From positions 62,001 to 126,000 of the forward strand of contig NZ_AEYW01000013.1 of the NCBI RefSeq assembly GCF_000192475.1: a stretch of DNA of 64,000 nt. The letters run 5' to 3'. This stretch comes from Ruegeria conchae (GTDB lineage: Bacteria > Pseudomonadota > Alphaproteobacteria > Rhodobacterales > Rhodobacteraceae). The notes beneath the pieces were generated by a model. That model saw only the letters and a list, made by a program, of their open reading frames with translations, was not told where the DNA came from and did not search any database. Made by a program: the position numbers and the translations under genes. Positions 11,337 to 35,977 of this stretch are shown piece by piece; position 1 is the stretch's first letter, and every line of letters begins with the position of its first letter.

Positions 11337-11356
11337 GGTTCGCAAGTAAGTACCGA

Positions 11357-11380: not shown

Positions 11381-11393
11381 CTCGGAGCTTCTC

Positions 11394-11738
11394 ATGCCAC
11401 ACGTCACACTTGAATTCTCTGCTGGTCTTGAACAGTCTCATGATTTTCAAGCCATCTGCGAGCAGCTTTACTCGGTTCTCGCCGGGCATGAAGAGTTTGA
11501 CCCGCCAACGCTCAAAATCCGCGCCACTCCGGTTCCGTTTTCTCGCATCGGAACCGAACCGCAGACTTTCGTCCATGCCACGCTTTTGCTGATGCAAGGC
11601 CGGGATGAGGCGACACGCACCGGGCTGAACGCGACTATTCTGGACGTTCTGGCCAAGACCATGCCCGAGGTCGGCAGCATCACTGTGCAAGATGTTGAAA
11701 TGACCCGCGCAACCTATGCCAAACGTCTATCAGGTTAG
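11394..11738 (+). CDS. 5-carboxymethyl-2-hydroxymuconate isomerase-like protein (tautomerase superfamily)
   Basis: Small (114 residues) member of the CHMI/HpaF family, which belongs to the tautomerase superfamily using the N-terminal proline (Pro1 after Met removal) as catalytic base. The protein begins MPHVTLEFSAGLEQ, with the proline directly after Met, and the rest matches the family length and pattern (FVHATLLLMQGRDEATR). CHMI isomerises a homoprotocatechuate-pathway intermediate, but no other genes of that pathway are near, so the true substrate is uncertain. It follows argF by 57 bases in the same orientation. Confidence 0.85.
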   Translation: MPHVTLEFSAGLEQSHDFQAICEQLYSVLAGHEEFDPPTLKIRATPVPFSRIGTEPQTFVHATLLLMQGRDEATRTGLNATILDVLAKTMPEVGSITVQDVEMTRATYAKRLSG

Positions 11739-14160: not shown

Positions 14161-15168
14161 ATGAGAATCGTCATCGCGGGCGCAGGCAGCATAGGCTGTT
14201 ATTGCGGTGCATTGTTGGCAGATGCGGGCCACGTGGTCACGCTGCTGGGCCGCGCCCGCGTGCTGCAGCCGATCCGCGAGCAGGGACTGACCGTTACCGA
14301 TTTCGCAGATCTGGACTGCCATGTGCCGATCGCGAAATTGACGCTCAGCGAAGATCCCGCCTGCTTAGAGGGCGCTGAATTGGTCATCGTCACGGTTAAA
14401 TCCGGCGCAACAGCCGAGATGGCAGCGTTGATTGCGGCGCACGCGCCGGCGAATGCCCCGATTGTGTCCTGGCAAAACGGTCTGGAAAACACCCGCGCAC
14501 TACGCGCGGTCCTTGACGGCCGCGACGTGCGGGCCGGAATGGTGCCCTTCAATGTGGTGCCAACCAATGCCGCGTTCTATCATCGCGCCACCTCCGGCGA
14601 TATCATCATCGAACAAGGTCAGGGCGATCTCGCGCTGCATCTCAGTACCCCGGATTTGCCCGTCACCGAAAGCGACCGGATCGAGGCGGTGCAATGGGGC
14701 AAACTGGTGATCAATCTCAACAATGCACTGAACGCGTTATCAGGTCTGACCCTGCAAAACCAGCTGCTTGATCGAAGCTGGCGTTGCTTGATGGCCGATC
14801 AAATGGCCGAGGCTTTGCGCGTTTTGAAAGCCGCGGGAATTGAAGTCGCCTCAACGACGCCACTGCCAGCATGGACGACCCCGCATCTACTGCGGTTGCC
14901 AACACCAATCTTTTCGCGGATTGCAGCAAAGATGCTTACCATCGACCCTAACGCGCGTACCTCGATGGCCTACGATCTGATGGAGGGTCGCCCGACCGAA
15001 ATCGACAGTCTGCAAGGCGAAATCATCAAGCTCGGGCAAATTCACGCGATCCCAACTCCGATCAACAGCCACATCTGCGGCCTTATTCATCAAGCACCGC
15101 GCGGGCCACTTGCGGTCGATCAGGTAATACCCCCGATCAACCAAATGCGGTCAGCAGCCAGAAGATAA
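14161..15168 (+). CDS. 2-dehydropantoate 2-reductase family protein
   Basis: NADPH-dependent ketopantoate reductase family (pantothenate pathway), 335 residues. The N-terminal Rossmann motif is MRIVIAGAGSIGCYCGALLA. VSWQNGLENTRAL and GKLVINLNNALNALSGL carry the conserved Asn and Lys of the active site. Several paralogues exist in this family with other 2-keto acid substrates, so panE itself is not certain. A very strong GGAGGAG lies just before the chosen ATG. The last 32 bases overlap the convergent phosphate transporter gene. Confidence 0.88.
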   Translation: MRIVIAGAGSIGCYCGALLADAGHVVTLLGRARVLQPIREQGLTVTDFADLDCHVPIAKLTLSEDPACLEGAELVIVTVKSGATAEMAALIAAHAPANAPIVSWQNGLENTRALRAVLDGRDVRAGMVPFNVVPTNAAFYHRATSGDIIIEQGQGDLALHLSTPDLPVTESDRIEAVQWGKLVINLNNALNALSGLTLQNQLLDRSWRCLMADQMAEALRVLKAAGIEVASTTPLPAWTTPHLLRLPTPIFSRIAAKMLTIDPNARTSMAYDLMEGRPTEIDSLQGEIIKLGQIHAIPTPINSHICGLIHQAPRGPLAVDQVIPPINQMRSAARR

Positions 15169-16615
15169 CTGCCGACAGGGCTGCAGCTGCGGGAACTGTG
15201 ATTACCCACGCTGCTACGATCGTCATAAAATGGGATCGCCGTACCAACTTGCGCCGCCGACGCTCTTCCCGTGCAAGACGCAGTTCAGCGGGTCGTTGAA
15301 GGTTCGAATATTTCCAGCGCCGTTCTGCATGCCATTCTCGATAGAACCCCACGCCAAACACGGCCCCAACTGCGATATGGGTTGAGCTGACGGGTAAGCC
15401 CAGCCAACTGGCTACGATAACTGTAATCGCTGCTGAAAGCGCAACACAGAACGCGCGCATGGGGTTCAATTTGGTGATCTGGCTGCCTACCATGCGGATC
15501 AGCTTGGGCCCAAACAGGAACAAACCGAAAGAGATGCCAAAGGCTCCGATTACCATGACCCATGTCGGGATTGACACTTTTGATGCAAAATCTCCGAATT
15601 CGGCAGCATGGACGATCGCGGCCAGCGGACCCACCGCATTGGCCACATCGTTTGCGCCATGGGCGAAGCTCAAAAACCCTGCGGAAATCACCAGTGGCAA
15701 ACCAAACAGCGTTTTCAACGACCGGGTTCTGTTCTCAAGGCCTTCGGATTTCCGTCGCACCCAAGGCACGGTCGCGGCCCAGATCAATCCGCCCGAAGCC
15801 AGCCCGATCAGCAGGGCGAACTCAATATCGATTTTGACGATGCGTTTCAGGCCCTTGACCGAAAGGTAGGTGGCAAAAGCCCCGGCCATCACGGCGACCA
15901 GAATGGGAACCCAGCGACGTGCGGCTGCGATTTTATCGTCCTGGTATTGAATCTTGTGTTTGATCAGCGCCAGAAATCCCGCAGCGATCACGCCACCCAA
16001 CACGGGCGAGATAACCCAGCTCGCGGCAATTGCGCTCATCGTGCCCCAGCTTACGGCACCAAGCCCGGCAGCAGCGACGCCGGCGCCCATAACGCCACCT
16101 ACGACCGAATGCGTGGTTGAAACAGGCGCGCCCACCCAGGTGGCTAAGTTTACCCACAACGCGGAAGATATCAGTGCAGCCATCATCGCCCAAATGAAGA
16201 CATCACTATTTTGCACCGACATTGGATCGATGATCCCTTTGGAGATCGTCGAAACCACGTCTCCACCCGCGAGCAGTGCGCCAGCACTTTCGGCAATTGC
16301 GGCGATCAGAATCGCGCCCCCCATTGTCAGTGCATTTGCACCAACCGCCGGTCCCATGTTGTTGGCGACGTCGTTGGCCCCGATGTTGATCGCCATATAG
16401 GCCCCGAAGGCTGCAGCGGCGACAACGATTAATCCGCCATCGGCGCGACCAAACATAACTGCGGCGGCCAAACCTGCCAAAGCGATAAAGACGAGTGCGA
16501 TACCGGGTGCCAGCAGCGGGCGCGCCACATGGGCATTGGCATACTCAAGACGAGAAATGCGGTGGAGGTCGCTGTCGAGCGCGTGCCAGCGGGCTTTGGG
16601 TGGTAGATCAGACAT
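15137..16615 (-). CDS. Inorganic phosphate transporter, Pit family
   Basis: Low-affinity phosphate (metal-phosphate):H+ symporter, 492 residues with about 11 helices. The duplicated Pit signature is seen twice: GANDVANNMGPAVGANALTMGGA in the first half (first 20 residues diagnostic) and AHGANDVANAVGPL in the second. VGAPVSTTHSVVGG and GLPVSSTHIAVGAVFG are the matching PHO4 repeats. The N-terminal 30-residue cytosolic extension is a little longer than in E. coli PitA. No phoU-like gene (DUF47) is beside it. Confidence 0.93.
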   Translation of the reverse strand: MSDLPPKARWHALDSDLHRISRLEYANAHVARPLLAPGIALVFIALAGLAAAVMFGRADGGLIVVAAAAFGAYMAINIGANDVANNMGPAVGANALTMGGAILIAAIAESAGALLAGGDVVSTISKGIIDPMSVQNSDVFIWAMMAALISSALWVNLATWVGAPVSTTHSVVGGVMGAGVAAAGLGAVSWGTMSAIAASWVISPVLGGVIAAGFLALIKHKIQYQDDKIAAARRWVPILVAVMAGAFATYLSVKGLKRIVKIDIEFALLIGLASGGLIWAATVPWVRRKSEGLENRTRSLKTLFGLPLVISAGFLSFAHGANDVANAVGPLAAIVHAAEFGDFASKVSIPTWVMVIGAFGISFGLFLFGPKLIRMVGSQITKLNPMRAFCVALSAAITVIVASWLGLPVSSTHIAVGAVFGVGFYREWHAERRWKYSNLQRPAELRLAREERRRRKLVRRSHFMTIVAAWVITVPAAAALSAVIFWLLTAFG

Positions 16616-16704
16616 CGATTTTCACAGGCCGTTCGATTTGACGCCCGCCGCTACCCTGTTCCGTCGAAAGCGGCAACCTTTGTCATGAGAAATATACGTA
16701 ATTG

Positions 16705-17163
16705 TTACATTTGCAGCAGCAGATCGCGCAATTCAGGCTCCTGCACCCGTCCAGCCGCCACTTTGGGCGAAACCCAGCAGCGTTTGCGCTGATTGGCCTC
16801 AGGATAATCGTCGGCCAGATTCGTCACCTGAACACGATACACGCTGGTGACCACATGCTGCGCCGTGCCGTCGTTCAATGTCTTGTCATAAGAGTATTGG
16901 CCGATCGGTTCCTTTGGAACATCCGTCGCCTGAACGCCAGCTTCCTCCCATGCTTCCTGCAACGCAGTCTCGGGGCCGTTAAGGCCATCAATGGGCCAGC
17001 CTTTTGGAATAATCCAACGTCCGGTTCCGCGGCTGGTGATCAGTAATACATCATCGCCGGACTCTGTGCCCCGCGTGCAAAGCGCCGCCACCTGCACCCG
17101 GTTTGGGCGCTGGAATAACGGTCGCGCGACCTCTTCCCAGATGTTGCGTATCCATTTCGTCAT
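16705..17163 (-). CDS. NUDIX hydrolase
   Basis: A 152-residue Nudix protein of the diphosphoinositol-polyphosphate/diadenosine type. The Nudix box is GLNGPETALQEAWEEAGVQ near residues 55-73, with GRWIIPKGWPIDG just before it as in that subgroup. It would cleave nucleoside diphosphates linked to another moiety, and the exact substrate is unknown. It lies downstream of hrpB in the same direction across a 190-base AT-rich spacer. Confidence 0.9.
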   Translation of the reverse strand: MTKWIRNIWEEVARPLFQRPNRVQVAALCTRGTESGDDVLLITSRGTGRWIIPKGWPIDGLNGPETALQEAWEEAGVQATDVPKEPIGQYSYDKTLNDGTAQHVVTSVYRVQVTNLADDYPEANQRKRCWVSPKVAAGRVQEPELRDLLLQM

Positions 17164-17354
17164 GTTCAGCCTGCTCGGACGTCTTTGTTTTTATTCGAAA
17201 GAGTTAAATAATCATGTATTGCAGGCTTAACAATAGATTGGCGGAAGAATGGGCAAAAATGGCCTAATTTCAGCCAATAATGCGGATATCTGTAGCATTT
17301 TTGCTGAATTGTGGTGCTATCACCGCCAAAAACATTGGTTAGATTGCGTCCGGT

Positions 17355-19793
17355 TCAGTTTTTACGACGTTTCGCACGCAGAGTTGGGTCAGCTTGAGTT
17401 GGATCTTCAGGCCAGGGATGTTTGGGATATTGCGCCCGCATATCCTTGCGCACGTCCGCATAAGACCCAGCCCAGAACCCTGGTAGATCGCGGGTGATCT
17501 GTATCGGTCTCTGCGCCGGTGACAGCAGTGTGATCTTTAAGGGCTCACCACCGATTAACGGGTGTTGGGTCACGCCGAACACCTCTTGCAATCGCACCGA
17601 AATCTCGGGCGCCGCACCGCTATAGTCGATTGGCAGCTTGCGTCCAAGCGGAGTCACAAACGACCCCGGCGCGCGGCGGTCCAGCTCTTGCGTCTGGGCC
17701 CAATCCAGCCGGGCACGCAAAGCTGGTAGCAGGTCAAAACGCTTCCAGTCTTCGGCGCTGCGTACGCCCGAGAGCGTAGGCAGCAGCCAGTCCTCCAGCG
17801 CGTCCATAAGACCCCCTTCCGAACAATCGGGTAGGTCAACACCTTCAGCTCGAACCAACTCGACCCGCGCTGCCAACCTTGCCGAGGCCCCCTGCAGCCG
17901 TATTCCGAGATCACGCACCCCGACCAGCATTGCCTGGGCCACAGCGTCTTCGGGTACGTCTTTCCAGATGCGGTCATCCAGGGTGATCGCCCCGAAGCGT
18001 TCCTGCCGTCGGGCCACGACACGGCGTTCGCGCTTGGACCATTCGCAACTATCGACCCATTCAATCTGATCGTCGAATAGATCGCGGATTTCACCCTCGG
18101 AAATCTGTGCGGCCATGCGTACGCGGGCCTCGCGCGGGTTGCCGTCTGTGTCGGTGACGACCAGATAAGGAGCTGTTGCCAAGGTGTCGTCAGCCTCCAG
18201 CACCACGCCCTTACCGCCCGAGAGGACATAGCGGGGGGTATCACCCCTGCGCCGTTGCGCGATGCGGTCCGGATAGGCCAGGGCTGCCGTCGCCGCAGGG
18301 CTCAGATCGCCAGAGCCCTGCGCTTGCGCACGTAACCGTTTTCCCTCTGTTTTGATCCGATCCAGCGCGCCCTCGTTGACTTGCCAGACGCGATTGTGCC
18401 GAAACTTGCGGATATCCCGCAACGCCTCAAGCCGCAACGACAGATCAACCGGCGCTCCACGCAGCGGATCTCGATCTGCCATCAGCGCCGCCAAGGGGGC
18501 GGCCTCGCGGCCCGCACGCACCAACATATGCGCGAGACGTGGATGCAGCGGCAACGCAGCCAACGCGCGCCCGTGTTCCGTAATCCGGCCCTTGCTGTCC
18601 AAGGCGTCGAGCATGGTTAGCAAGGATCGTGCCTCGGTCAATGCGCCCTCAGGTGGCGAAGTCAGGAACGCAAGATCACCCGGCTCCGCGCCCCAGAGCG
18701 CGAGCTCCAGCGCCATTCCGGTCAAGTCGGCGGCTTCGATCTCAGCAGGTGGGTATGCGAGCAGTGCGCCTTCTTCGCCCTTGGACCACAGCCGGTAGCA
18801 CACGCCTTCGGCTACACGGCCTGCACGGCCCGCACGTTGAGTGGCCTCGGCTCGTGTTACCCGCTCGGTCACCAGCCGCGACATGCCAGAACCTGGATCG
18901 AACCGTGCGCGCCGCGCTTGGCCCATATCCACCACCACGCGGATATCGGGTATGGTCAACGAGGTCTCAGCAATCGATGTCGCCAGCACGACTTTGCGGC
19001 CTGTCGTCACTGGCGCAATTGCTGCGCGTTGGGCTGCAAATGGCAGGGCACCAAAAAGAGGGTGTACCGTGCAGTCGTTGGGCAGGCGGCGTGTCAAAGC
19101 AACCTCGGCGCGCCTGATTTCCCCTTCGCCGGGCAGGAAAACCAGCATTCCACCTGTAGTTTCCCGCTCGGCCTGCACAACCAGATCAACAAGCGCATCC
19201 AAGCGTCGAGCCTGCGCACCCAGAGGTCGGTCAAGCCAACGGGATTCAACCGGATAGCTGCGCCCCTCGGAAGTGATGAGCGGCGCATCCATCAGCCGCC
19301 CCACCGGTTCGGCATCCAGTGTCGCAGACATTGCAAGCAGGATAAGATCGTCCCGAAGCGCTCCTGCCACCTCAAGGCATAAGGCCAGCCCCAGATCGGC
19401 GTTCAGCGAGCGCTCGTGGAATTCATCAAAAATTACTGCCCCCACGCCTGCTAAATCCGGTTCGAATTGCAGCATGCGGGTCAAAATGCCCTCGGTCACC
19501 ACTTCGATCTGTGTGGAATTTGAAACCTTCGTATCACCGCGTACGCGGTAGCCGACGGTCTTACCCACAGGTTCACCCAAAGTCTCAGCCATGCGCTCTG
19601 CAGCGGCCCGCGCGGCCAGTCGACGTGGCTCAAGCATCACGATTCGACCATCGCCAAGGCCTGCATGCAGCATCTCAAGCGGCACGCGGGTCGTTTTACC
19701 CGCACCCGGAGGCGCCTGCAGTACCGCGCACCCATGCGTTCGCAAGGCGTTCAGAAGATCGGGAATGGCGTCATCAATGGGCAACCGGGTCAT
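17355..19793 (-). CDS. hrpB: ATP-dependent helicase HrpB
   Basis: DExH-box RNA helicase-like protein of 812 residues, close to the usual HrpB length. Motifs in order: Walker A APPGAGKTTRVPLEML (near residue 30), DEFHERSLNADLGLAL (motif II), MSATLDAEP (motif III), and RAGRAGRVAEGVCYRLWS (motif VI). It is followed by the HrpB-specific C-terminal domain with LGRKLPIDYSGAAP. The role of HrpB in bacteria is poorly known. The C-terminus ends with a basic KRRKN tail. Confidence 0.95.
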   Translation of the reverse strand: MTRLPIDDAIPDLLNALRTHGCAVLQAPPGAGKTTRVPLEMLHAGLGDGRIVMLEPRRLAARAAAERMAETLGEPVGKTVGYRVRGDTKVSNSTQIEVVTEGILTRMLQFEPDLAGVGAVIFDEFHERSLNADLGLALCLEVAGALRDDLILLAMSATLDAEPVGRLMDAPLITSEGRSYPVESRWLDRPLGAQARRLDALVDLVVQAERETTGGMLVFLPGEGEIRRAEVALTRRLPNDCTVHPLFGALPFAAQRAAIAPVTTGRKVVLATSIAETSLTIPDIRVVVDMGQARRARFDPGSGMSRLVTERVTRAEATQRAGRAGRVAEGVCYRLWSKGEEGALLAYPPAEIEAADLTGMALELALWGAEPGDLAFLTSPPEGALTEARSLLTMLDALDSKGRITEHGRALAALPLHPRLAHMLVRAGREAAPLAALMADRDPLRGAPVDLSLRLEALRDIRKFRHNRVWQVNEGALDRIKTEGKRLRAQAQGSGDLSPAATAALAYPDRIAQRRRGDTPRYVLSGGKGVVLEADDTLATAPYLVVTDTDGNPREARVRMAAQISEGEIRDLFDDQIEWVDSCEWSKRERRVVARRQERFGAITLDDRIWKDVPEDAVAQAMLVGVRDLGIRLQGASARLAARVELVRAEGVDLPDCSEGGLMDALEDWLLPTLSGVRSAEDWKRFDLLPALRARLDWAQTQELDRRAPGSFVTPLGRKLPIDYSGAAPEISVRLQEVFGVTQHPLIGGEPLKITLLSPAQRPIQITRDLPGFWAGSYADVRKDMRAQYPKHPWPEDPTQADPTLRAKRRKN

Positions 19794-26200: not shown

Positions 26201-26581
26201 CTAACTCTCTTCCAGCACCTTCTTGGCCACACGGAAGCACTCCAACGCCTGCGGCACGCCGCAATAAATTCCAATCACGTGAACGATTGCGCGGATTTCT
26301 TCTTTGGTGACGCCATTATTGATGGCCCCGCGGCAGTGGGTCTCCCATTCAGTCATTTTGCCTAGTGCGCCAATCATCGAGAGGTTCATCATCGACCGGG
26401 TCTTTGCGTCGATCACGTCATCCCCCCAGCCAAAGCCCCAACACCACGCGGTCATGGCCTCCTGAAACGGGCGAGTGAAATCATCTGCTGTAGCCAAGTT
26501 CTTTTCGACATATTCAGCCCCCAGCGTAGTTTTGCGCTGTTCGAGCCCTTTCAGAAACAGATCTTCGTCAAATACGCTCAT
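26201..26581 (-). CDS. Carboxymuconolactone decarboxylase (CMD) family protein
   Basis: A 126-residue all-helical CMD/AhpD-superfamily protein. The pattern AWCWGFGWGDDVIDAKTRSMMNLSMIGALG and HCRGAINNGVTKEEIRAIVHVIGIYCGVP (shown here as two blocks) matches gamma-carboxymuconolactone decarboxylases. It lacks the AhpD CxxC motif, so peroxidase function is unlikely. Its ATG lies three bases after the end of the degraded aldehyde dehydrogenase frame, so it was the last gene of the minus-strand operon. Real substrates in such islands are unknown. Confidence 0.88.
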   Translation of the reverse strand: MSVFDEDLFLKGLEQRKTTLGAEYVEKNLATADDFTRPFQEAMTAWCWGFGWGDDVIDAKTRSMMNLSMIGALGKMTEWETHCRGAINNGVTKEEIRAIVHVIGIYCGVPQALECFRVAKKVLEES

Positions 26582-26584
26582 GGT

Positions 26585-27494
26585 CTAGTCCTTCAGTTTG
26601 ATGGCGACGTTTTTGGTTTGTACATAGTTCCACAAGGCTTCGCGCATCTTGGGGGGCGCCATTCGCGAACGCATTCAGGTCAGCATCATCATGCGCTATC
26701 GCAGCGGATTTCCGGCCAAGTTTCAGCACACTGGAGACGACGTTCTTGGCGGTGATGGTCGCAATGGCAATGCCCGTGGGGACGGGCCCTGTGAAGACGA
26801 TCTGGTTCACATGCGTGTGGGTCGACAAGGCACTACCGGACTCGTGGCCCAGCCCGTAAAGGATGTTCACCGCGCGCTCAGGCAGGCCTGCGGTCTCTGC
26901 AGCGGAGGCAAACCACGAGTTGCTGAACGGTGTCAGCTCTGGCGTTTTGATCACGCCGGCGTTGCTCGAGGCAAGTGCTGCTGACAGCGAACGCGTCGTC
27001 ATTTCGATCGGATTGCTCCAAGAGATTATCTGCGCCGAAACACCGTGGGGTTCGTAGGTCGTGAAATTGTAATGGTCTTTCCCCAACGGGATCGAGTGGC
27101 CCTCGAAGGATTCAGCCTGATCGCCATAGTATTCGAAATACGGCGCGGCTTCCTCGACCTCGATCCGGGCTTCCCACAGGGGGTCGCACTGTTCCAGCGT
27201 CAGAATCCTGGCGATCTCGTCAATATGGGTCAGCATATAGTGGCCCATGGCCTGCACTATGTGACCATGTTCGACTGGGCGCAGATCGGACAAGGTACCT
27301 GATAGATGCGCGCGTTTTGCAGCCATATCGGCGCTGACAACGTTGCCCGCATCCGTAAGCGCACACTCGGCCAGCTTTTTGTCGATGCTAGGGTTCAACG
27401 CGTCGATCCGGCTGGCTATGCCGTTGACCAACGCGCCATCAATGTAGCTTAGCCAATAGGCCTTCATTACAGATCGATCAATATGTTGGTGCAT
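26585..27494 (-). pseudogene. Aldehyde dehydrogenase pseudogene (internal deletion and frameshift)
   Basis: The N-terminal two thirds follow the NAD-dependent aldehyde dehydrogenase fold: YFEYYGDQAESFEGHSIP, ISWSNPIEMTTRSLSAAL, NILYGLGHESGSALSTH, IVFTGPVPTGIAIA. The active-site motif usually ELGGKS reads KLGRKS, so the general-base Glu is lost. Right after DDADLNAFANGAP the sequence jumps, in another frame, to KMREALWNYVQTKNVAIKLK followed by TAG, which is the normal ALDH C-terminus. About 170 residues, including the catalytic Cys, are missing. The 308-codon frame that remains open ends in unrelated residues. Normal family length is about 480. The gene is therefore dead, though its neighbours are intact. 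Confidence 0.9.
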
Positions 27495-27500
27495 TGTGCG

Positions 27501-28598
27501 TCAATGTTCTTGACCATCTACAGCTTCACGCATCCAGCGCTGCAATGCAGCGATGGAATGCTCTGAACTGACCCCGCAGTTGGGGTCCAGCACAAGGGGA
27601 CCGGGGCGATAACCACGAGATTTCAGCCCTCGCTGCACGCTTTCCACGAGGTGGATGTCCTCTTTTACTGTTGTCTCGCGATCTTGAGCGGCAAGACCCC
27701 GGATTACCTCACTTTCAGCACCTTCCGGCGTAAACCAGCCGCGCCAGACGGTACAGTTTTCATGGCCGTGGGCACGCCAGTGGTAGGTGTTTAGAACATT
27801 GCCCGGATAGCATTGGAATGAGAACATGGGCCACAGGAACCAGCTCTGATAATCCCCGGCATGGGGCACCGACATGTCCACGGGATAGGTCATCTTTTTC
27901 ATTGGCTGACATTCGGTTGTATGGCGCAGAACATATCCGCCGTCCGCATCCGGTTGGATGTCATAGGTTTCCGGCTTGATTACACCCTCGGCGAAAGTCG
28001 CGTGGTTAATGGGACAGTGGTAGCACTCTGAGTAATTCTCGACCGAGACCTTCCAGTTGCAGTTCTCAGGCACCTCGACCCATTCCAGAGGGGCAAGCCT
28101 GACGACATTGGGAACGAATTCGGCGATCTCTTCACGGACACCGGGGAACCAATCGTCCATCGGCGCCGCATCGTCATCGAGGTTGACGAAAAGAAAGCCA
28201 TGGAAATCTTCGGTCCGGACTTCGGTCAGGCAGATCTCAGAGCGGTCAAAGCCCGGAACGGATTTGATGTTCGGACCCGCGCGCAAATGTCCAGTCAGTT
28301 CGTAGGTCCAGGCGTGATAGGGGCAGACCACCACACGAGTGTTACCAGTCCCGGTGACCATTTCGTGGGCGCGGTGTTGGCAGACGTTATAGAAGGTGCG
28401 GATCACTTCGTCCCGGCCACGGATCGAGAATAGGCTTTGGCCCGCAATTTCAAAAGTGAAATAGTCACCGACATTGGGAAGCTGGCTGACATGGCCCGCG
28501 AATTGCCATGTCCGGGCAAGCAGGCCGGACATTTCTTGCGCATAAATATCGGGATCGGTGTAATAACGCGCGGCCAAAGACCTGATGGGTTCGGTCAT
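27501..28598 (-). CDS. Rieske-type aromatic ring-hydroxylating/demethylating oxygenase alpha subunit
   Basis: Rieske non-haem iron oxygenase of 365 residues. The 2Fe-2S motif is C73-x-H75 (NVCQHRAHEM) and C92-x2-H95 (VVCPYHAWTYE). The mononuclear iron site is ENYSECYHCPINH with His194 and His199. Close relatives by layout are choline/carnitine/betaine monooxygenases that remove methyl groups from quaternary amines, rather than true aromatic dioxygenases. The setting beside a DMGDH-like demethylase fits that reading. No ferredoxin reductase gene is adjacent. Its start overlaps the end of the upstream regulator gene by four bases. Confidence 0.92.
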   Translation of the reverse strand: MTEPIRSLAARYYTDPDIYAQEMSGLLARTWQFAGHVSQLPNVGDYFTFEIAGQSLFSIRGRDEVIRTFYNVCQHRAHEMVTGTGNTRVVVCPYHAWTYELTGHLRAGPNIKSVPGFDRSEICLTEVRTEDFHGFLFVNLDDDAAPMDDWFPGVREEIAEFVPNVVRLAPLEWVEVPENCNWKVSVENYSECYHCPINHATFAEGVIKPETYDIQPDADGGYVLRHTTECQPMKKMTYPVDMSVPHAGDYQSWFLWPMFSFQCYPGNVLNTYHWRAHGHENCTVWRGWFTPEGAESEVIRGLAAQDRETTVKEDIHLVESVQRGLKSRGYRPGPLVLDPNCGVSSEHSIAALQRWMREAVDGQEH

Positions 28599-29482
28599 GT
28601 CTTCTCCTCGTGATACAGTCCCAGCTGGTGGCGACGGTTGTGGAATTTCTCGACCCGTTCGACGATCTCGTCGCTGGCAACGGCGATGACGAATGACAAA
28701 AGCGTCTCAAGCAGCGCGATGATGCTGACCGAGGACGGGAAGAATTGCGGTGTATCGACCGATACCACGAAGTCATGATCGGCCAGACGCAGGATCGGGC
28801 TGGCGGGACTGTCGGACAGAGCGACGATGACCATGCCCTGTTCGCGCGCTATCTCGACGGCTTTGACCACCTCGGACCGGTAGGGTTTGCAGGTGATCGC
28901 GATCAGCACGTCACTTTCATCTGCCCACGCCAGATCATCGACAGGGGTCGAGCCCGGACGCGGGATGGCGTGAAACTCCTTCATACCGGTCGAGGCCAGA
29001 TAGGTGAAATTGCGCGCGATCGAGTTGTTGACGCCCACGCCAAGGGTAAACACATTGCGCGAGGCCCAGATCGCCTCGGCCGCCGTCTTCAGGTCGTCGG
29101 TCAAGATACCCGCAAAGGTCTCTTCGACGTTGCGCAGCACGTCCTGCACTATGTCGGCATATAGCCCGCCCAGATCGTCCGATTTGCGAATGTCCTGAAG
29201 CCAGCGCGCGCGGTCCGGGAAGTCGGCGGCGCCGCGTCGGATGGCATCGCGGAAGGGCGCGCGGAAATCTTCGTAGCCTTCGAACCCGACCTGACGGGCC
29301 ATGCGCACGACGGTGTTGGGTTTGACATTCGCAGCCTCTGCGATTTCGCGCACCGTCGACACCCCCACATCACGGGGGTTTTCCAAGACATAAGTTGCCG
29401 CCTTGCGTGCCTCGGGCGTCAGCTCGGAAAGCTCATCGGCCAGACGCTCGAGAATCGTATTTGATACATTTGTCCCATTCAT
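28595..29482 (-). CDS. MurR/RpiR family transcriptional regulator
   Basis: A 295-residue regulator: N-terminal RpiR helix-turn-helix (LTPEARKAATYVLENP, then REIAEAANVKPNTVVRMARQ) and a C-terminal SIS domain (ASRNVFTLGVGVNNSIAR, then DVLIAITCKPYRSEVVKAVE) that usually binds a phosphosugar or similar ligand. The start is the ATG before NGTNVSNTILERL. An extended upstream frame has no family similarity. It is the first gene of the minus arm and is divergent from the demethylase gene with only 66 bases between, so it probably controls both arms from that gap. Confidence 0.9.
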   Translation of the reverse strand: MNGTNVSNTILERLADELSELTPEARKAATYVLENPRDVGVSTVREIAEAANVKPNTVVRMARQVGFEGYEDFRAPFRDAIRRGAADFPDRARWLQDIRKSDDLGGLYADIVQDVLRNVEETFAGILTDDLKTAAEAIWASRNVFTLGVGVNNSIARNFTYLASTGMKEFHAIPRPGSTPVDDLAWADESDVLIAITCKPYRSEVVKAVEIAREQGMVIVALSDSPASPILRLADHDFVVSVDTPQFFPSSVSIIALLETLLSFVIAVASDEIVERVEKFHNRRHQLGLYHEEKT

Positions 29483-29548
29483 GATTGACGATGGTATTTT
29501 TGTTTGCTTAGCGTGTCGAGAGGAAAACGACTCGAAAAGGATGTTGTC
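29483..29548. promoter_or_regulatory. Divergent promoter gap of the dddQ island
   Basis: Sixty-six bases between the RpiR-type regulator and the DMGDH/GcvT-type gene. It is AT-rich in its centre (TTTTTGTTTGCTTA). It must hold start signals for both arms and is the likely operator, but no exact site can be assigned by eye. Confidence 0.5.
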
Positions 29549-31993
29549 GTGGCAAGTGAGTTTCCATCCCACGCACGCGTGGTCATCGTCGGCGGAGGCA
29601 TCATGGGCGTCGGGCTGGCCTATCATCTTGGGCATGAAGGCTGGGGTGCGGAAACGGTGTTGCTTGAAAAGGCCGAGCTGACCTCGGGCAGCACATGGCA
29701 CGCCGCCGGACAGATCACACATTCGACCTCGTCCTTTGGGTTGGGGAAGTGCGTGGACTATAATATCGGCCTCTATTCCGGTGGATTGGAAGCGGAAACA
29801 GGCCAGCCGGTGACATGGCACGGCTGCGGGTCGTTTCGCCTAGCCTATACGGAAGACGAAATGGACTGGTTGCGCCATACGCTATCGGTGGGTCGCTCGC
29901 TGGGTTTCAACATCGAACTGGTTGGGCCGGAAAAGGTGGCCGAGTTGCACCCGTTCTATAACCTCAGTGGTGTTCTGGGCGCACTTCACACGCCGGATGA
30001 CGGTCACGTGGACTCGACGAATGTCACGATGGCGATGGCCGCTGGGGCCCGTCAAAAGGGCGTGCGGATCATCCGCCAATGCCGCGCTTCCAACATCACG
30101 CAAGCTGACAATGGCGAATGGGTGGTTGAGACTGGGAAGGGCACAATCACCTGCGAGCATGTCGTCAATGCCGGCGGCACATATGCGCGGCAGATGGGCG
30201 AATGGTCGGGGCTGCAATTGCCCATGACCTCGATGACGCACCATTACTTCGTGACCGACGAGGTGCCCGAATTCCAGGGTCTCGACGTAGAACTGCCCGT
30301 CATTCGCGACGACAAGAAAGTTTCGGGCTATATCCGGATGGAGCAAAAGAAGGGCCTGATCGGGATTTACGAGAAAGAAAACCCGAACTCGGTCTGGCAC
30401 GATGAATGTCCATGGCATTACGAGAATTGGCTGTTTGACGCGGATTATGACCGTGTCATGCCGTATTTGGAAGAAAGCCTGAACCGGATGCCGATCTTTG
30501 CCGATCTGGGCATTCAACGCGTCGTGCACGGCGCGATCAGCCATCCACCAGACGGCAACCCGCTGATCGGCCCGGCACCCGCTGTGCGCAATTACTGGTG
30601 CTGCTGCGGCACTCAGATCGGCATTGGATGGGGGCCCGGCCTGACCCGCGAGCTGGCGCGCTGGATGGTGCATGGAGCGGCTGACATCTCGATGCGCGAA
30701 TTCGACCCGCGCCGGTTTGGCAGTTATGCCACGAAGAACTGGCAGGTAGTGAAGGCCGAAGAGGATTACTGTCTGCGCCACGAAATCCCCTTCCCACATT
30801 TCAACCGTCTGGTCGGACGCCCGATCAAGCCGTCCCCCTTGCATGATCTGCTGAAAAGCAAAGGTGCCGTGCATGAAGAGGTCTATGGCTTTGAACGCCC
30901 ACGCTTTTTCGCCAAGGGGATCGAACAGTGCGACCACTATTCCTTCAACCGTTCCCCCGTCGACGATATGGTAGCGGCCGAGGTGAAAGCGGTGCGCACC
31001 GGCGTCGGCATCATGGATGTTACCGCCTTCGCAAAGGTGCTGGTCGAAGGGCCGGATGCATACGCATTGCTGGACCGGCTGACCGCCAACCGAATGCCGC
31101 AGAAGATCGGCTCGATCACCCTGACCCACATGCTGAACCGCGCTGGCCGGATCGAGCTGGAAACGACGATTGTGCGGATGGCTGAAGACCGCTTCTATCT
31201 GGTCTGCGCCGCTTTCTTCGAACAACGCCTGCTGGACCACTTGAACCATCGACGCGCGGAGGAAGATGTGACGATAACGGCCCTGTCGTCCGAGTGGAGT
31301 GTCCTGTCCCTGAACGGTCCCAAGTCGCGGGACGTGTTGGCCGCCTGCACTGACGCCGACTTGTCCAACGCCGGGTTCCGCTGGCTGTCTGCACGGGAAA
31401 TCACGGTTGCAGGTCACAATGTCTGGGCATTCCGTATGTCCTACGCGGGCGAGCTCGGTTGGGAATTCCACATGCCCAATGACGCCAGCCTTGATGTCTA
31501 CACTACGCTGTGGGCTGCGGGTGAGATACACTGCATTGCCGATTACGGCAGCTTCGCGATGAATGCGATGCGTATGGAGAAGGGCTTCAAGGGGGCTGGC
31601 GAATTAACCAACGAGGTCACACTGGCCGAGGCTGATGTTTTGCGTTTTGCTCGGACGGACAAGGAGTATCTGGGCCGCGACAAAACTCTAAATACTGACC
31701 TGCCGTGGGTCTGCGCCTATCTGGAAATCGAGCCCGACGGAAAAGCGGACGGCCACGGCGGTGAGGCGGTGGTTTTGAACGGGCAGGTGGTCGGATCCAC
31801 AGCGTCCGTGGCCTTTGGCCCAACAGTCGGGAAGATTTTGGCCTTTGCCTATGTCAAACCTCACGCCGCCACTCCCGGCACGGCGCTTGAAGTGGTGATC
31901 CACGGCATCCGCCGTGCAGCCCGTGTGCTGGGCGATCCCGCCTACGACCCCAAATCCAAAAAGCCCAGAACCGACGCAAGGGAGATCGCGTGA
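29549..31993 (+). CDS. GcvT family FAD-dependent demethylase (dimethylglycine/sarcosine dehydrogenase-like)
   Basis: An 814-residue two-part enzyme. The N-terminal half is a DAO-type flavoprotein: VVIVGGGIMGVGLAYHLG (FAD) and SGSTWHAAGQI, where the His corresponds to the covalent FAD attachment site of dimethylglycine dehydrogenase. The C-terminal half is a folate-binding GcvT module (RTGVGIMDVTAFAKVLVEGP, MSYAGELGWEFHM). Such enzymes oxidise N-methyl groups and pass the carbon to tetrahydrofolate. The start is a GTG at 29549 placed 7 bases after AAGGA. A TTG at 29504 has no such site. It is the first gene of the plus arm and its stop overlaps the start of dddQ. The exact methylated substrate is unknown. 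Confidence 0.92.
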   Translation: MASEFPSHARVVIVGGGIMGVGLAYHLGHEGWGAETVLLEKAELTSGSTWHAAGQITHSTSSFGLGKCVDYNIGLYSGGLEAETGQPVTWHGCGSFRLAYTEDEMDWLRHTLSVGRSLGFNIELVGPEKVAELHPFYNLSGVLGALHTPDDGHVDSTNVTMAMAAGARQKGVRIIRQCRASNITQADNGEWVVETGKGTITCEHVVNAGGTYARQMGEWSGLQLPMTSMTHHYFVTDEVPEFQGLDVELPVIRDDKKVSGYIRMEQKKGLIGIYEKENPNSVWHDECPWHYENWLFDADYDRVMPYLEESLNRMPIFADLGIQRVVHGAISHPPDGNPLIGPAPAVRNYWCCCGTQIGIGWGPGLTRELARWMVHGAADISMREFDPRRFGSYATKNWQVVKAEEDYCLRHEIPFPHFNRLVGRPIKPSPLHDLLKSKGAVHEEVYGFERPRFFAKGIEQCDHYSFNRSPVDDMVAAEVKAVRTGVGIMDVTAFAKVLVEGPDAYALLDRLTANRMPQKIGSITLTHMLNRAGRIELETTIVRMAEDRFYLVCAAFFEQRLLDHLNHRRAEEDVTITALSSEWSVLSLNGPKSRDVLAACTDADLSNAGFRWLSAREITVAGHNVWAFRMSYAGELGWEFHMPNDASLDVYTTLWAAGEIHCIADYGSFAMNAMRMEKGFKGAGELTNEVTLAEADVLRFARTDKEYLGRDKTLNTDLPWVCAYLEIEPDGKADGHGGEAVVLNGQVVGSTASVAFGPTVGKILAFAYVKPHAATPGTALEVVIHGIRRAARVLGDPAYDPKSKKPRTDAREIA

Positions 31994-32592
31994 CACAAGC
32001 ACAGGTCTGGACGCACGCAGCAGCCGAGCTTGCCCGCTGCTTTCGTACCTACCCCTCTCTTGCGGAGTTCAGTTCATTTCCGACTGATCTTGTGCCACAA
32101 AAGGTCACGACGCGGGCCTTGCCCCCGCTTGATTTGCTGGCAACTGACCAAGCCTTGCGGTCTGGGACAGTCTCGACTTTGCGTGACGCTGTGCTTGCGC
32201 TTGCCTGCGACGCGCACTGGCTCGAGCATTATCGAGATAGCGGGATAGGCGATGATTTCATGGATCGGTTTGGCTGCTTCTGTCTGGTCGGCGATCAGGG
32301 CGGCTTTGCATCAGACCAACTCCGTGTCTGGCTGGTTTATATGCCGCCACATCTGCACTATCCGTGGCATCATCACCCAGCGGAAGAGCTTTATTTAGTG
32401 CTTGCCGGGCAGGCAGAGTTCCTACGTGCCGGACAAGCTAAGCGCTGGCTGAGCTCTGGCGACACTGCGTTCCACTCCTCTAACCAGCCTCACGCGATGA
32501 CGACGGGCGCAGACTCGGTTCTATGTCTGGTATTCTGGCGCAATCAGTTCGAGTCCGGGCCGCAACTGACTGATGGAAATGACATATCATGA
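31990..32592 (+). CDS. dddQ: Dimethylsulfoniopropionate (DMSP) lyase DddQ
   Basis: Cupin enzyme that cleaves DMSP into dimethyl sulfide and acrylate. 200 residues, the family length. The metal and catalytic residues form the pattern Y124-x2-H127-x-H129-x3-E133-x-Y135 in HYPWHHHPAEELYLVLAG, with a later His168 in SSNQPHAMTT. This matches the residues I recall as essential in the Ruegeria lacuscaerulensis enzyme (Tyr120, His123, His125, Glu129, Tyr131, His163). The helical N-terminal part is also DddQ-like rather than DddW or DddL. It starts with GTG, overlapping the previous stop by four bases after GGGAG, and overlaps the next gene by four bases, so translation is coupled. Confidence 0.93.
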   Translation: MTQAQVWTHAAAELARCFRTYPSLAEFSSFPTDLVPQKVTTRALPPLDLLATDQALRSGTVSTLRDAVLALACDAHWLEHYRDSGIGDDFMDRFGCFCLVGDQGGFASDQLRVWLVYMPPHLHYPWHHHPAEELYLVLAGQAEFLRAGQAKRWLSSGDTAFHSSNQPHAMTTGADSVLCLVFWRNQFESGPQLTDGNDIS

Positions 32593-33692
32593 AAATCTCT
32601 CGCATTTCGTTATGGTCTGTCGATCTTACCAGCCATGAGACCTACTACATGGCCGAGGGCAAGACCTGCGACACGGTCAAAAGCCATGTCCTGTGTCTGG
32701 AGGCCGATAACGGAAAGAAAGGCTGGGGCGAGGTCTGCCCCATCCCGCATTACCTGCCCGCCTTCGCCAATGGTGTCCCCGGTGCGATCGAGGAAATGGC
32801 ACCCGAAATCCTTGGCGTCGAACCGTTCGGCATTGATGCCCCAATGCGTAAACTGGATTCGTTCCTGCAAGGACATCTCTATGCGAAATCTATCGTCGAC
32901 ATGGCGTTGTGGGATCTGTTCGGCAAAGCGAGTGGGCAGCCCCTTTACGCGCTGCTTGGTGGCCGCACTCAAGCTGACATGCCGCTCTATCACTCGATCA
33001 CCTGCGTCATGCCCGACGACATGGCGCGGATCGCGCGTCAGGCTTATGCGACGGGTATCCGACAGTTTCAAGTCAAGCTTGGGGCCGACGCCGACTGGCA
33101 AGCAGATGCCGAACGGTTGGCCAAGGTACGCGAGGCCGTGGGCGACGGCCCACTGGTCTATGGCGACTGGAACTGCGGGGCGACAAAACTTCAGGCCACG
33201 CGGACGGGACGCGCTGTGGCACATCTGGATGTTATGCTGGAGCAGCCCTGCAAAACGCTGGAAGATTGTGCAGCTGTCAGACAGGCAACTGGCCTGCCTA
33301 TGAAAATCGACGAAAATGCCTATGATCTGGCGTCGCTCATGCACGCGCATGAACTGGGCGTGCTGGACGCAGTCGCCTTGAAACTGTCGAAATTCGGCGG
33401 GCTGTCCGCGATGCGCCGCGCGCGTGATCTGACTGTTCATCTGGGGGCCGAGATCTGCGCGGAATGCACTTGGGGATCAGACATAGTCACCGCCGCATCG
33501 CTGCATTTCGCCGCCTCGACACCGCGAGATGCCCTACTGAACACCTGCGATCTGTCGTCCTATGTAGGGCCACGCATTGCGCCGGATTGTCCGTCCCGCA
33601 AGGATGGGCGTATTGCACCACCAGAAGGCCCCGGGCTTGGGGTGAGGCCCGATCTGGACATCCTTGGTACCCCAATTCTTGAACTGGACTGA
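32589..33692 (+). CDS. Mandelate racemase/muconate lactonizing enzyme family protein
   Basis: Enolase-superfamily enzyme of 367 residues, MLE-like. Visible residues: Lys in QFQVKLGAD (second strand), acidic metal ligands in VYGDWNCG, MLEQPCKTLED and MKIDENAYDLAS, and a second Lys in ALKLSKFGGLS. A Lys on each face of the substrate allows racemisation or epimerisation. The N-terminus (GWGEVCPIPHYLPAFA) and GHLYAKSIVDMALWDLFGK look like those of the betaine epimerase HpbD of Pelagibaca, a roseobacter. An epimerase acting on a betaine is thus a fair hypothesis, but a dehydratase cannot be excluded. The start overlaps the dddQ stop (ATGA). Confidence 0.9.
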   Translation: MKISRISLWSVDLTSHETYYMAEGKTCDTVKSHVLCLEADNGKKGWGEVCPIPHYLPAFANGVPGAIEEMAPEILGVEPFGIDAPMRKLDSFLQGHLYAKSIVDMALWDLFGKASGQPLYALLGGRTQADMPLYHSITCVMPDDMARIARQAYATGIRQFQVKLGADADWQADAERLAKVREAVGDGPLVYGDWNCGATKLQATRTGRAVAHLDVMLEQPCKTLEDCAAVRQATGLPMKIDENAYDLASLMHAHELGVLDAVALKLSKFGGLSAMRRARDLTVHLGAEICAECTWGSDIVTAASLHFAASTPRDALLNTCDLSSYVGPRIAPDCPSRKDGRIAPPEGPGLGVRPDLDILGTPILELD

Positions 33693-33695
33693 CCT

Positions 33696-34970
33696 ATGCA
33701 GAAACTGACCTCTCAAGCCGATTGGATCGCCCGGGCCCGCACCGTGTTGCCTGCCGGAGGCTTCGGCAATTTCGATCCCGGCATAGTCATCGCGCGCGGT
33801 GAAGGCAGCCGTGTCTGGGACGAGGATGGGAACGAATATGTCGACTATCTGATCGGCTCTGGCCCGATGCTTCTGGGGCATGGCCATCCTGAAATCATAG
33901 GGGCCGTTCTTGAGCAGCTCCCCAAGGGCATGACCTTCTTTGCTAACAATGCCAAGGGCATCGAACTGGCCGAGGCGATTGTTGAGGCGGTGCCGTGCTG
34001 CGAACAGGTCCGGTTTGTGGCCTCAGGTGGCGAGGCCGACATGTACGCCATCCGTCTTGCCCGCGCCTATACCGGCCGCGACAAGGTCCTGAAGTTCGAA
34101 GGCGGATACCACGGGATGAGCGCCGAAGCACAGATGAGCCTTGCGCCCGAAGTCCGCATCAACTTCCCCCAAGCTATTCCCGACAGCGCGGGCATCCCGC
34201 AAGGGGTCGCTGATCAGATGTTGATCGCCCCGTTTAACGATCTGACCGCGGTCGAGGCGCTGCTGGACGAAAACAAGGACGTTGCCGCGATTATCGTAGA
34301 GCCCCTGCAGCGGATAATTCCCGCCTTGCCCGGCTATTTGCAAGGGCTGCGCGACCTGTGCGACAAATACAGTGTCCTCTTGATCTTTGACGAAATCGTT
34401 ACGGGCTTCCGGCTGGCCTATGGCGGCGCGCAGGAACGCTATGGAGTAACTCCAGACATCTGCACCTTGGGCAAGATCATCGGCGGCGGTTTTCCTCTGG
34501 CCGCCATTGGGGCCAATACCGAGATCATGCAGCATTTCGACAAATCTACTGTCGGCGCGAACAAATGGCTAATGCAGCTTGGCACACTGTCAGGCAATCC
34601 GATCGCTGCCGCAGCCGGCCTTAAGACGATGGACATCCTACGCCGCGAGGGCAGCTATGAGCGCTTGCGCGCTATCGGAAAAAAGCTGCAAGACATGCAA
34701 AGTGAGGAGTTGAGCAAGGCTGATATTCCGCATCAAATCTGTGGTGATGAGACCTTGTTTGACATCTTTTTTACAGCCAGTGTTTGCAGAGACTATCGGA
34801 CCGCCAAGCATGACGACCCAAAGCGTAACGAAGCCTATAATGCGACGCTGCGACACCACGGCATCTTCAAGTCGGCCGGCAAACTCTATCCTTCACTGGC
34901 GATCTCCGAGATGGACCTTGAACTGACAAAAAATGCAGTTCAGGCAGCGGTGCGATCCATTCATGCTTGA
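33696..34970 (+). CDS. Class III PLP-dependent aminotransferase (glutamate-1-semialdehyde aminomutase-like)
   Basis: A 424-residue fold-type I PLP enzyme. RFVASGGEADMYAIRLARAY binds the cofactor phosphate. LLIFDEIVTGFRLAYGG holds the Asp that contacts the PLP ring, and the Schiff-base Lys is in CTLGKIIGGGFPLAAIG. It resembles the GSA-aminomutase-like subgroup often annotated as aspartate aminotransferase family, but the haem-pathway gene hemL is not expected here. It would handle an amino-acid or beta-alanine-like product in this island. It follows the enolase-superfamily gene by three bases and its stop directly abuts the end of the convergent LysR gene. Confidence 0.9.
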   Translation: MQKLTSQADWIARARTVLPAGGFGNFDPGIVIARGEGSRVWDEDGNEYVDYLIGSGPMLLGHGHPEIIGAVLEQLPKGMTFFANNAKGIELAEAIVEAVPCCEQVRFVASGGEADMYAIRLARAYTGRDKVLKFEGGYHGMSAEAQMSLAPEVRINFPQAIPDSAGIPQGVADQMLIAPFNDLTAVEALLDENKDVAAIIVEPLQRIIPALPGYLQGLRDLCDKYSVLLIFDEIVTGFRLAYGGAQERYGVTPDICTLGKIIGGGFPLAAIGANTEIMQHFDKSTVGANKWLMQLGTLSGNPIAAAAGLKTMDILRREGSYERLRAIGKKLQDMQSEELSKADIPHQICGDETLFDIFFTASVCRDYRTAKHDDPKRNEAYNATLRHHGIFKSAGKLYPSLAISEMDLELTKNAVQAAVRSIHA

Positions 34971-35906
34971 CTAACTTATCACCTTCAGCTGCCCGTCCAG
35001 CCACGGCAACTGCGCCAAAGCAGGGTCAACGATCTGGCTCTGCATCAGTCGCTTAATCATATCCGCCACTTCCTGCGGTACCTGATCCGACCAGTCGGAG
35101 CGAGTAATCAGTGAGATTCTGCGCGCGAACTTGCCAAACGGGGCAGGTTGCGCTTCCAGCCCGTCATGAAACCGTGCGGCGCGCATATAGCCCAGCGGTG
35201 TGGTGATCGCCCAGCCCAAGCCTCGTGCCACCATCGCCATTAATGCCAGATGCGAACCGATTTCGAACCGTTCTTCGAACTCCATTTGCTGCCTGGCCAG
35301 ATGACCTTCGATCTGACGGCTGATCAACTGTTCACGGGCGTAGCGCAGGAAGGGCAGGTCTTGCATCGGCTGCTCGGCGCCCTTGGGAGCGACCAAAATG
35401 AACGGGTCTTGGACCAGAGGGTATTCGATGACACCTTCCAATACTTCACCAGAATGGGCCGAGACAGCCATGTGTAACCGCTGCGCCTCCAGTGCTTCGA
35501 ACAAATCGAGGCTCGACAGCGTGATCAGCTTGAATTTCGACCGGGTCAGACTGTCGGCTAGCAGAGTGGCCAACCTGGGCGTCAGATCATTGTCGAAATC
35601 GTCGATCAATCCGATGGACAGAGTGGTCAGATGCCCCAGATCCATGACCGCCAGCTCGCTCTGGGCCACTTGCAGCTCACCCAGCACCGCTTGAGTGCGC
35701 GCCAGAAAACTGCGCCCGGCCTGCGTCAGCCGCATCGGTCGCCGCCCGTGATCCACCAGATCAGTGCCTAAAGCCTTTTCCAGATTGCGCAATTGCTGAG
35801 ACACCGACGGCTGGCTGAGCCCCGTGATCTCGGCCGCCTGCGCCACCGATCCCGTCCGCGCCAGCGCCTCGAACACCTCAAGGCCCCGCAGGGTCAGCCC
35901 CTTCAT
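34971..35906 (-). CDS. LysR family transcriptional regulator
   Basis: A 311-residue LTTR with an N-terminal winged helix (LEVFEALARTGSVAQAAEIT, then SQPSVSQQLRNLEKALG) and an effector-binding domain (LSIGLIDDFDNDLTPRL). It converges on the dddQ arm with no spacer, so it belongs to the island by position, but the typical divergent LysR target is not present on its other side. A second ATG two codons in (35906) gives MKGLTLRGLEVF and is preferred. Confidence 0.92.
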   Translation of the reverse strand: MKGLTLRGLEVFEALARTGSVAQAAEITGLSQPSVSQQLRNLEKALGTDLVDHGRRPMRLTQAGRSFLARTQAVLGELQVAQSELAVMDLGHLTTLSIGLIDDFDNDLTPRLATLLADSLTRSKFKLITLSSLDLFEALEAQRLHMAVSAHSGEVLEGVIEYPLVQDPFILVAPKGAEQPMQDLPFLRYAREQLISRQIEGHLARQQMEFEERFEIGSHLALMAMVARGLGWAITTPLGYMRAARFHDGLEAQPAPFGKFARRISLITRSDWSDQVPQEVADMIKRLMQSQIVDPALAQLPWLDGQLKVIS

Positions 35907-35977
35907 CACCATCGCACATACCTTTCGCTGCGCCTTTCTGGGGCGCAGCGGGCATCAGGTCAAGGATTTGCCGTCGG

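Follow-up and report, generated by a model that had tools for sequence, protein, structure and literature searches.

A dddQ gene as an optional module of a probable methylated-onium pathway in Ruegeria conchae and related Rhodobacteraceae

Introduction

The cupin enzyme DddQ is counted among the main bacterial lyases of dimethylsulfoniopropionate (DMSP), yet the Km reported for DMSP is unfavourably high, and DMSP induces dddQ only slightly in R. pomeroyi. According to the published account, dddQ of R. pomeroyi DSS-3 and R. nubinhibens ISM is linked to, and likely co-transcribed with, an MDR028-type gene, and in the seven strains known at the time it was never close to acuI (PMC3338564). Here, we analyse the dddQ gene in a stretch of 64,000 nucleotides from Ruegeria conchae (contig NZ_AEYW01000013.1, positions 62,001 to 126,000; in the following “the window”), where it is embedded in a conserved gene cluster that very probably serves the catabolism of a methylated onium compound.

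For DddQ of R. lacuscaerulensis a Km of 22 mM is reported (PMC5395565), and after addition of DMSP to R. pomeroyi the stated induction is 1-4 fold for dddP and dddQ and 40-fold for dddW (PMC4437653). A chemostat oxidative-stress table, whose columns the accessible text does not explain, gives 0.8-1.9 for dddQ and 1.9-20.8 for dddW (PMC9769926). An acrylate-sensitive E. coli mutant is described as not being relieved by the MDR gene from the dddQ cluster of R. nubinhibens (PMC3338564), and SPO1596 of R. pomeroyi DSS-3 is listed as dddQ without its neighbours in the relevant parts of two further papers (PMC9038784, PMC4334477). The link between dddQ and MDR has been in print since 2012. In a literature search that covered few subscription papers, we found no printed account of the wider cluster with its Rieske, DMGDH, enolase and aminotransferase genes, though one may exist elsewhere.

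Results

Organisation of the dddQ locus

The original prediction had described a tight plus-strand unit of DMGDH, dddQ, enolase and aminotransferase genes, divergent from genes for an RpiR regulator, a Rieske oxygenase, a remnant of an aldehyde dehydrogenase (ALDH) and a CMD protein. Family profile scans recovered every gene named there, in the following layout:

26201..26581, minus strand: CMD/AhpD-like protein, PcaC-like (116.5 bits, under the PcaC cut-off of 155.7, TIGR02425)
26568..27494, minus strand: 5' fragment of an ALDH gene, 308 aa, covering positions 7-258 of the 461 of the Pfam Aldedh profile
27501..28598, minus strand: Rieske oxygenase, top solved match carnitine monooxygenase 6y8j
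28595..29482, minus strand: RpiR/MurR-type regulator with HTH_6 and SIS domains, start placed from the conserved N-terminus and the rpiR/DMGDH region
29485..29519, no strand assigned: candidate divergent promoter/operator element TTGACGATGGTANNNNTGTNNGNTTANNNTGTCNA, conserved between rpiR and DMGDH
29549..31993, plus strand: DMGDH/GcvT-type demethylase with FAD and folate domains, start inferred, match to 5l46 with 475 bits
31990..32592, plus strand: DddQ, cupin DMSP-lyase family (Pfam DMSP_lyase), GTG start
32589..33692, plus strand: enolase-superfamily enzyme (type MLE-C, see below), top solved match 4mgg
33696..34970, plus strand: class III (GSA-aminomutase-like) aminotransferase, from family scans
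34971-35912, convergent with the aminotransferase gene: LysR-type regulator, nearest family PcaQ, under its cut-off

On both sides, dddQ overlaps its neighbours by 4 nt (GTGA with the DMGDH gene, ATGA with the enolase gene), and the gap between the enolase and aminotransferase genes is 3 nt; because of this tight spacing, the four plus-strand genes very likely form one operon. A chance arrangement is excluded, since the gene set recurs with its order kept in dozens of genomes. The most likely starts are GTG at 29549 for DMGDH and 29482 for RpiR; in the analyses, DMGDH was used as 29558-31993, three codons downstream of the preferred start, and RpiR from a start nine codons upstream of the preferred one. 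A promoter and terminator scan stayed below shuffled sequence (2 vs 4.1 and 4 vs 8.8) and adds little, with one of the two promoter-like sites falling in the rpiR/DMGDH region. There is no reductase among the genes of the cluster and no MDR gene in the window cluster, the nearest homologue in the same genome (46% identical) lying on another contig. The genome also holds a second demethylase locus (L262, C22:97000-116900), in which two paralogues of DMGDH (32-35%) lie together with a homologue of MDR (44-46%) and a gene that resembles homocysteine methyltransferase but stays under its cut-off.

The DddQ protein

The window DddQ scores 68.3 bits with the Pfam DMSP_lyase profile (gathering cut-off 27). 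Its top solved match is 5cu1 with 173 bits and 45% identity over 183 residues, and it is 39 and 41% identical to 4la2 and 4b29, respectively. We take 5cu1 to be DddQ of R. pomeroyi and 4b29 that of R. nubinhibens. These proteins and the window DddQ belong to one family and have all six catalytic residues in common. For R. lacuscaerulensis DddQ, named as the source of 4la2, the key residues are given as Tyr120, His123, His125, Glu129, Tyr131 and His163 (PMC4437653). By alignment, their equivalents in the window are Y124, H127, H129, E133, Y135 and H168, all of them present, just as had been predicted from the sequence for the metal and catalytic residues. The six residues are kept in 116 DddQ homologues (56 in clusters, 12 beside MDR, 48 other), with a single exception, an in-cluster DddQ in which Arg takes the place of H129. 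As they are conserved in all contexts, the residues do not separate these contexts.

In a quick DddQ tree with many weak forks, using three of the five listed solved-match sequences, all three group with in-cluster DddQs: 5cu1 pairs with the DddQ of R. pomeroyi SZCCDBG043 (L129; support 100) and 4la2 with that of L055 (94), while 4b29 falls within a set of eight (98), the remaining seven of which all lie in clusters. The wider sets around 5cu1 and 4la2 include non-cluster DddQs too.

The window copy is a reduced member of the cluster, close to those of Aliiroseovarius sp. PrR006 (L076, the nearest named relative, with a DddQ 85% identical) and Pelagimonas phthalicica (L077). The ratio of non-synonymous to synonymous substitution rates (dN/dS) of dddQ is 0.14 against L076 and 0.10 against L077, and the window DddQ is under purifying selection; DMGDH, enolase and aminotransferase are under tighter constraint (0.04-0.08).

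Conservation of the cluster in the family Rhodobacteraceae

We named the three enolase types found in these loci MLE-A, MLE-B and MLE-C; many relatives carry two to six enolase genes, whereas the window has only one, MLE-C. Of 198 family genomes, 66 contain DddQ-like proteins (E ≤1e-5), which reach at least 90 bits in 26, MLE-C (E ≤1e-100) occurs in 35, and both (DddQ at ≥90 bits) are found together in 16 (Fisher p 5e-8, phylogeny ignored). Leaving aside one MLE-C genome (G140) and two without DMGDH on the stretch, 32 loci combine DMGDH with MLE-C. Besides these two, they contain the aminotransferase (30 loci), RpiR and Rieske (27 each), MDR and MLE-B (20 each), CMD (17), ALDH (15), DddQ (14), MLE-A (8) and an AMDase-type gene (5), absences being partly due to contig ends.

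A second set of named relatives was collected with 12 close DddQs as queries, and the best 80 of 95 were used; it overlaps with the family sample (L042 and L121, for instance, cover one and the same stretch), and the two are not to be summed. A DddQ locus was called a cluster with at least three of RpiR, Rieske, DMGDH, MLE-A, -B, -C and aminotransferase at ≥45% identity. In this set, 33 loci lie in a cluster, 10 have only MDR and 37 neither, and in the 28 loci shorter than 20 kb neighbours may be hidden; when only the 52 longer loci (≥20 kb) are counted, the numbers are 28, 2 and 22. Another neighbour scan gave 70 loci around DddQ without any cluster gene, among which groups of 5 to 6 loci share, as judged by eye, tRNA-synthetase or glycerol genes. 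The pair of MDR and DddQ without the rest is seen in L106, L109, L115, L117, L122, L126, L131 and others, several of them metagenome bins of Rhizobiaceae, and the two genes may constitute a separate unit.

The DddQ of L129 shares 94% identity with the 5cu1 stretch. In L129, genes for CMD, Rieske and RpiR are divergent from DMGDH - enolase - DddQ - aminotransferase, and the window has the same set around dddQ. The MDR linkage printed for R. pomeroyi and R. nubinhibens is lacking in the window and also in L129, unlike DSS-3 as printed. R. nubinhibens ISM has dddQ1 and dddQ2, whereas the window has one DddQ and a broken ALDH.

A candidate control element between rpiR and DMGDH

The rpiR/DMGDH region was obtained from 65 loci including the window (59 distinct) and contains a common block, from which a 35-bp pattern was derived. 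Allowing up to three mismatches, this pattern has one site in the R. conchae genome and 27 sites in 26 of the 198 family genomes, and a reversed control pattern has none in the same genomes. All 27 sites adjoin an rpiR and/or DMGDH gene of the cluster type; 25 adjoin both, and the remaining two lie on separate contigs of one genome. Since 12 of the 26 genomes have the cluster with dddQ and 12 without it (in G140 and G186 the view is too short), the element belongs to the cluster and not to dddQ. RpiR may bind this candidate element; the arrangement is real and conserved, and it is probably under joint control. As the element occurs once in the R. conchae genome and only at the cluster in the 198 family genomes, the regulon approach to the substrate revealed no transporter.

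Identity of the neighbouring enzymes

The neighbours of dddQ resemble enzymes for methylated amines without reaching the named families. The Rieske oxygenase matches carnitine monooxygenase 6y8j best among solved structures (207 bits), which places it near the carnitine and glycine betaine monooxygenases; next come 3vca and 4qup (~115 bits), which we assume to be of the stachydrine-demethylase type. For the enolase, 4mgg (272 bits) is followed by 4e8g, 2pmq and 4h2h (185-194 bits), presumably of the HpbD type. It shows the features of the MLE subgroup, with K163, K265, D193, E218 and D241 in place (hand count on the 4mgg alignment), the lysines being, as we assume, catalytic and the acidic residues the metal site. 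Subgroup, lysines and metal ligands are shared with cis-3-hydroxyproline dehydratase. Because the cut-offs were missed, the names cis-3-hydroxyproline dehydratase (331.6 vs 500 bits), glycine betaine monooxygenase GbcA for the Rieske protein (NF058607; 157.3 vs 670 bits) and DMSP demethylase DmdA for the DMGDH/GcvT protein (NF009133; 49.5 vs 410 bits) were rejected. The aminotransferase, too, stays under the HemL cut-off (TIGR00713; 359.6 vs 527.3 bits), as the CMD protein does under that of PcaC, and when the MDR, MLE-A and MLE-B genes from a relative were scored as whole proteins, no equivalog exceeded its cut-off.

Of the substrates suggested at the outset, proline betaine and hydroxyproline betaine found no specific support, given the missed cut-offs of cis-3-hydroxyproline dehydratase and GbcA. 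A pathway for one of these two, with an HpbD-like enolase and a stachydrine-type Rieske enzyme, could draw on the matches to 4e8g, 2pmq and 4h2h and to 3vca and 4qup; the far better match to carnitine monooxygenase (207 vs 115 bits) and the better match to 4mgg (272 vs 185-194 bits) speak against it, and a class III aminotransferase is superfluous for the breakdown of proline betaine. We regard this explanation as unlikely.

dddQ as an optional part of the cluster

Presence and absence of dddQ can be compared directly in L222, which is collinear with the window at ~81% identity on both sides and has 29 nt between DMGDH and enolase in place of the 637 nt that hold dddQ. L222 and L041 come from contig C5 of genome G086 (probably the same as L103), which has a dddQ-less cluster and two tandem dddQ genes ~110 kb away. 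Clean presence or absence in collinear relatives would fit a mobile gene inserted into the operon without any functional tie, as would the 28 changes of context on the DddQ tree, at least nine of them forced by strong branches. Shuffled context labels, however, gave a mean of 39.7 changes and in 0 of 500 cases as few as 28, a clustering to which near-copies contribute. The association of DddQ with MLE-C across genomes, the same operon stretch in many genera and the purifying selection likewise argue against a mere hitch-hiker, which we consider very unlikely.

Within the 32 family loci, MLE-A is found in 8 of the 14 with dddQ and in 0 of the 18 without (Fisher p 0.0003, phylogeny ignored), MDR and MLE-B each in 12 of 14 and 8 of 18 (p 0.03), and the AMDase-type gene showed no significant association (p 0.14). 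This link to MLE-A gives the strongest indication that DddQ and MLE-A work one after the other; as the window has no MLE-A, MLE-C would have to serve there. An enolase-type enzyme of Labrenzia is described as both epimerase and dehydratase (PMC5144071). That the native job of DddQ in the clusters is a beta-elimination on a betaine-type compound rather than DMSP cleavage, following epimerisation by MLE-A or MLE-C, is rather doubtful in this specific form. Candidate substrates would be chiral, beta-substituted onium carboxylates such as hydroxylated betaines, carnitine-like compounds or the head group of the algal betaine lipid diacylglycerylhydroxymethyltrimethyl-β-alanine (DGTA). The last is suggested by chemistry alone; the literature search gave no support.

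Occurrence outside the family and on plasmids

Within the class, 28 of 385 genomes have relatives of the DMGDH (E ≤1e-200); two of these genomes are that of R. conchae itself and that of another member of its family. From 16 regions examined, 15 belong to other families, and 10 of these 15 hold RpiR, Rieske, DMGDH and aminotransferase, the smallest sets comprising little else. L221, from another family, shows the parts in a different order (5736-11626): DddQ (36%), MDR (65%) and Rieske (51%) on one strand are divergent from DMGDH (53%) and CMD (82%), and neither RpiR nor aminotransferase was matched. In L216, one of the 10 regions with all four genes, a distant cluster (14799-18369) adjoins a carnitine 3-dehydrogenase gene (620 vs cut-off 592 bits); genes for a keto-acid cleavage enzyme and for a regulator of GbdR-like type, each under its cut-off, also lie beside it.

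Plasmids of Sulfitobacter SK012, Roseovarius THAF8, Ruegeria SCSIO 43209 and Mesorhizobium 131-2-5 carry the cluster without dddQ. Like the window, all four have Rieske, DMGDH, CMD, class III aminotransferase and enolase genes, and three have RpiR and ALDH. Transporters beside the clusters are scattered ones only: an ABC set whose binding protein weakly resembles PhnS/PotD is near the cluster of the Roseovarius plasmid, and an oligopeptide-type ABC set near that of the Mesorhizobium plasmid.

Further genes and the ALDH remnant

In the window, the ALDH gene is truncated: it has 8 bp where L076 has 571 bp, so that 563 bp net are missing, a number not divisible by three. Its dN/dS against L076 is 0.26, about 2 to 10 times that of its neighbours (0.03-0.14), whereas against L077 the contrast is gone (0.07 vs 0.04-0.12, with dS near saturation). 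ALDH is intact in many relatives, and CMD is 62-93%, mostly >80%, identical in those that carry it. The LysR gene was rejected as a member, as it has matches at only 4 of 158 other loci (L035, L041, L103, L120), all weak and none with a cluster; the match in L041 covers the DNA-binding part only and lies 6 kb from dddQ.

Genes absent from the window recur elsewhere. Next to the Rieske gene, genes of the AMDase family (PF17645) and of the Sulfotransfer_5 family (PF19798) form a pair (e.g. L150:3996-4823, L059:6802-7551); each of the two is present in 24 of 159 loci, with duplicates counted. In 13 loci the operon's enolase genes have a small cupin gene among them (L100:12767-13051), and in one further locus (L126) this gene adjoins an MDR-DddQ pair.

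Discussion

The best overall explanation of these data, to which we give about an even chance, is a divergon for a methylated onium carboxylate of the betaine type that would be under the control of its RpiR protein, with DddQ as an optional branch. The original prediction of one operon within a divergon of demethylase-type genes, in which dddQ forms one branch, is supported by the conserved cluster, the common control region and the gene overlaps; it is weakened in that dddQ is optional and about half of the DddQ relatives are found outside the cluster.

In the proposed mechanism, the divergon is probably controlled by its own RpiR protein. The Rieske oxygenase would remove the first methyl group from a quaternary amine, and the DMGDH/GcvT protein would transfer further methyl groups onto folate. 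The aminotransferase would then take off the amino group to leave an aldehyde or ketone, to be oxidised by the ALDH that is broken here. Enolase-superfamily enzymes, which abstract an alpha proton, could epimerise or dehydrate stereoisomers. DddQ, also by alpha-proton abstraction, would expel a beta leaving group and thereby open beta-substituted onium carboxylates as an optional branch. The common thread would be alpha-proton chemistry on carboxylates bearing an onium group. DMSP is the best known beta-substituted onium carboxylate and probably cleaved by DddQ too, and the gene placement suggests a nitrogen or hydroxy analogue handled by the pathway as main substrate. In the cluster, DddQ most likely works on a betaine-type carboxylate, as a beta-eliminating lyase for which DMSP is a second substrate; whether its main substrate belongs to the onium pathway rather than being DMSP itself is, in our estimate, evenly poised.

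The main alternative is that DddQ is a true DMSP lyase whose gene sits in the betaine divergon because DMSP and betaines are of common algal origin and have uptake and signals in common, so that co-regulation and not a common substrate would unite them. A dddQ mutant of R. pomeroyi is reported to release 97% less DMS (dimethyl sulfide), dddP and dddQ to be induced by pre-growth with DMSP, and E. coli extracts with dddQ to yield DMS and acrylate; for the R. nubinhibens mutant, the decrease is only 20% (PMC5395565). In view of the strong mutant phenotype and the DMSP-induced expression, DMSP is a real substrate of DddQ in R. pomeroyi. The R. conchae genome has dmdA (601.9 bits, over the NF009133 cut-off) and acuI side by side on another contig, so DMSP catabolism has a locus of its own, and acrylate, should DddQ form it, could be handled. 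This fits the earlier statement that acrylate breakdown does not need the neighbours of dddQ. DddQs outside the cluster retain the catalytic residues as well. On the other hand, the induction of 1-4 fold in R. pomeroyi (PMC4437653), the lack of acuI near dddQ in the seven strains described (PMC3338564), a Km in the tens of mM (PMC5395565) and the absence of the rpiR/DMGDH element from the dmdA-acuI locus, which follows from its single site in this genome, speak against it. We see this explanation as quite possible, if somewhat short of even.

Several findings weigh against the proposed betaine-type role of DddQ. Besides the 97% loss of DMS and the induction by DMSP, dddQ is absent from 18 of the 32 cluster loci, and a Ruegeria plasmid outside this sample (L072) has MLE-A without dddQ. 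The 37 of 80 loci with neither cluster nor MDR keep the same catalytic residues. The proposed comparison of synteny places 33 of 80 dddQ genes in the cluster and 47 outside (37 with neither, 10 with MDR only), which comes near to contradicting the link. In addition, the cluster enzymes miss the equivalog cut-offs of named families, and no transporter was tied to the cluster within the window.

Against this background, dddQ is best described as an optional but constrained module of a probable methylated-onium pathway. Its place inside a conserved betaine-type gene set questions the main role of the DddQ family, and the finding of solved DddQs among members of methylated-amine operons offers a testable alternative or additional substrate class, together with a candidate regulator and a candidate control site. 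If DddQ is indeed a betaine eliminase, the release of DMS would be a side reaction, and counts of dddQ in ocean metagenomes would overstate DMSP lysis.

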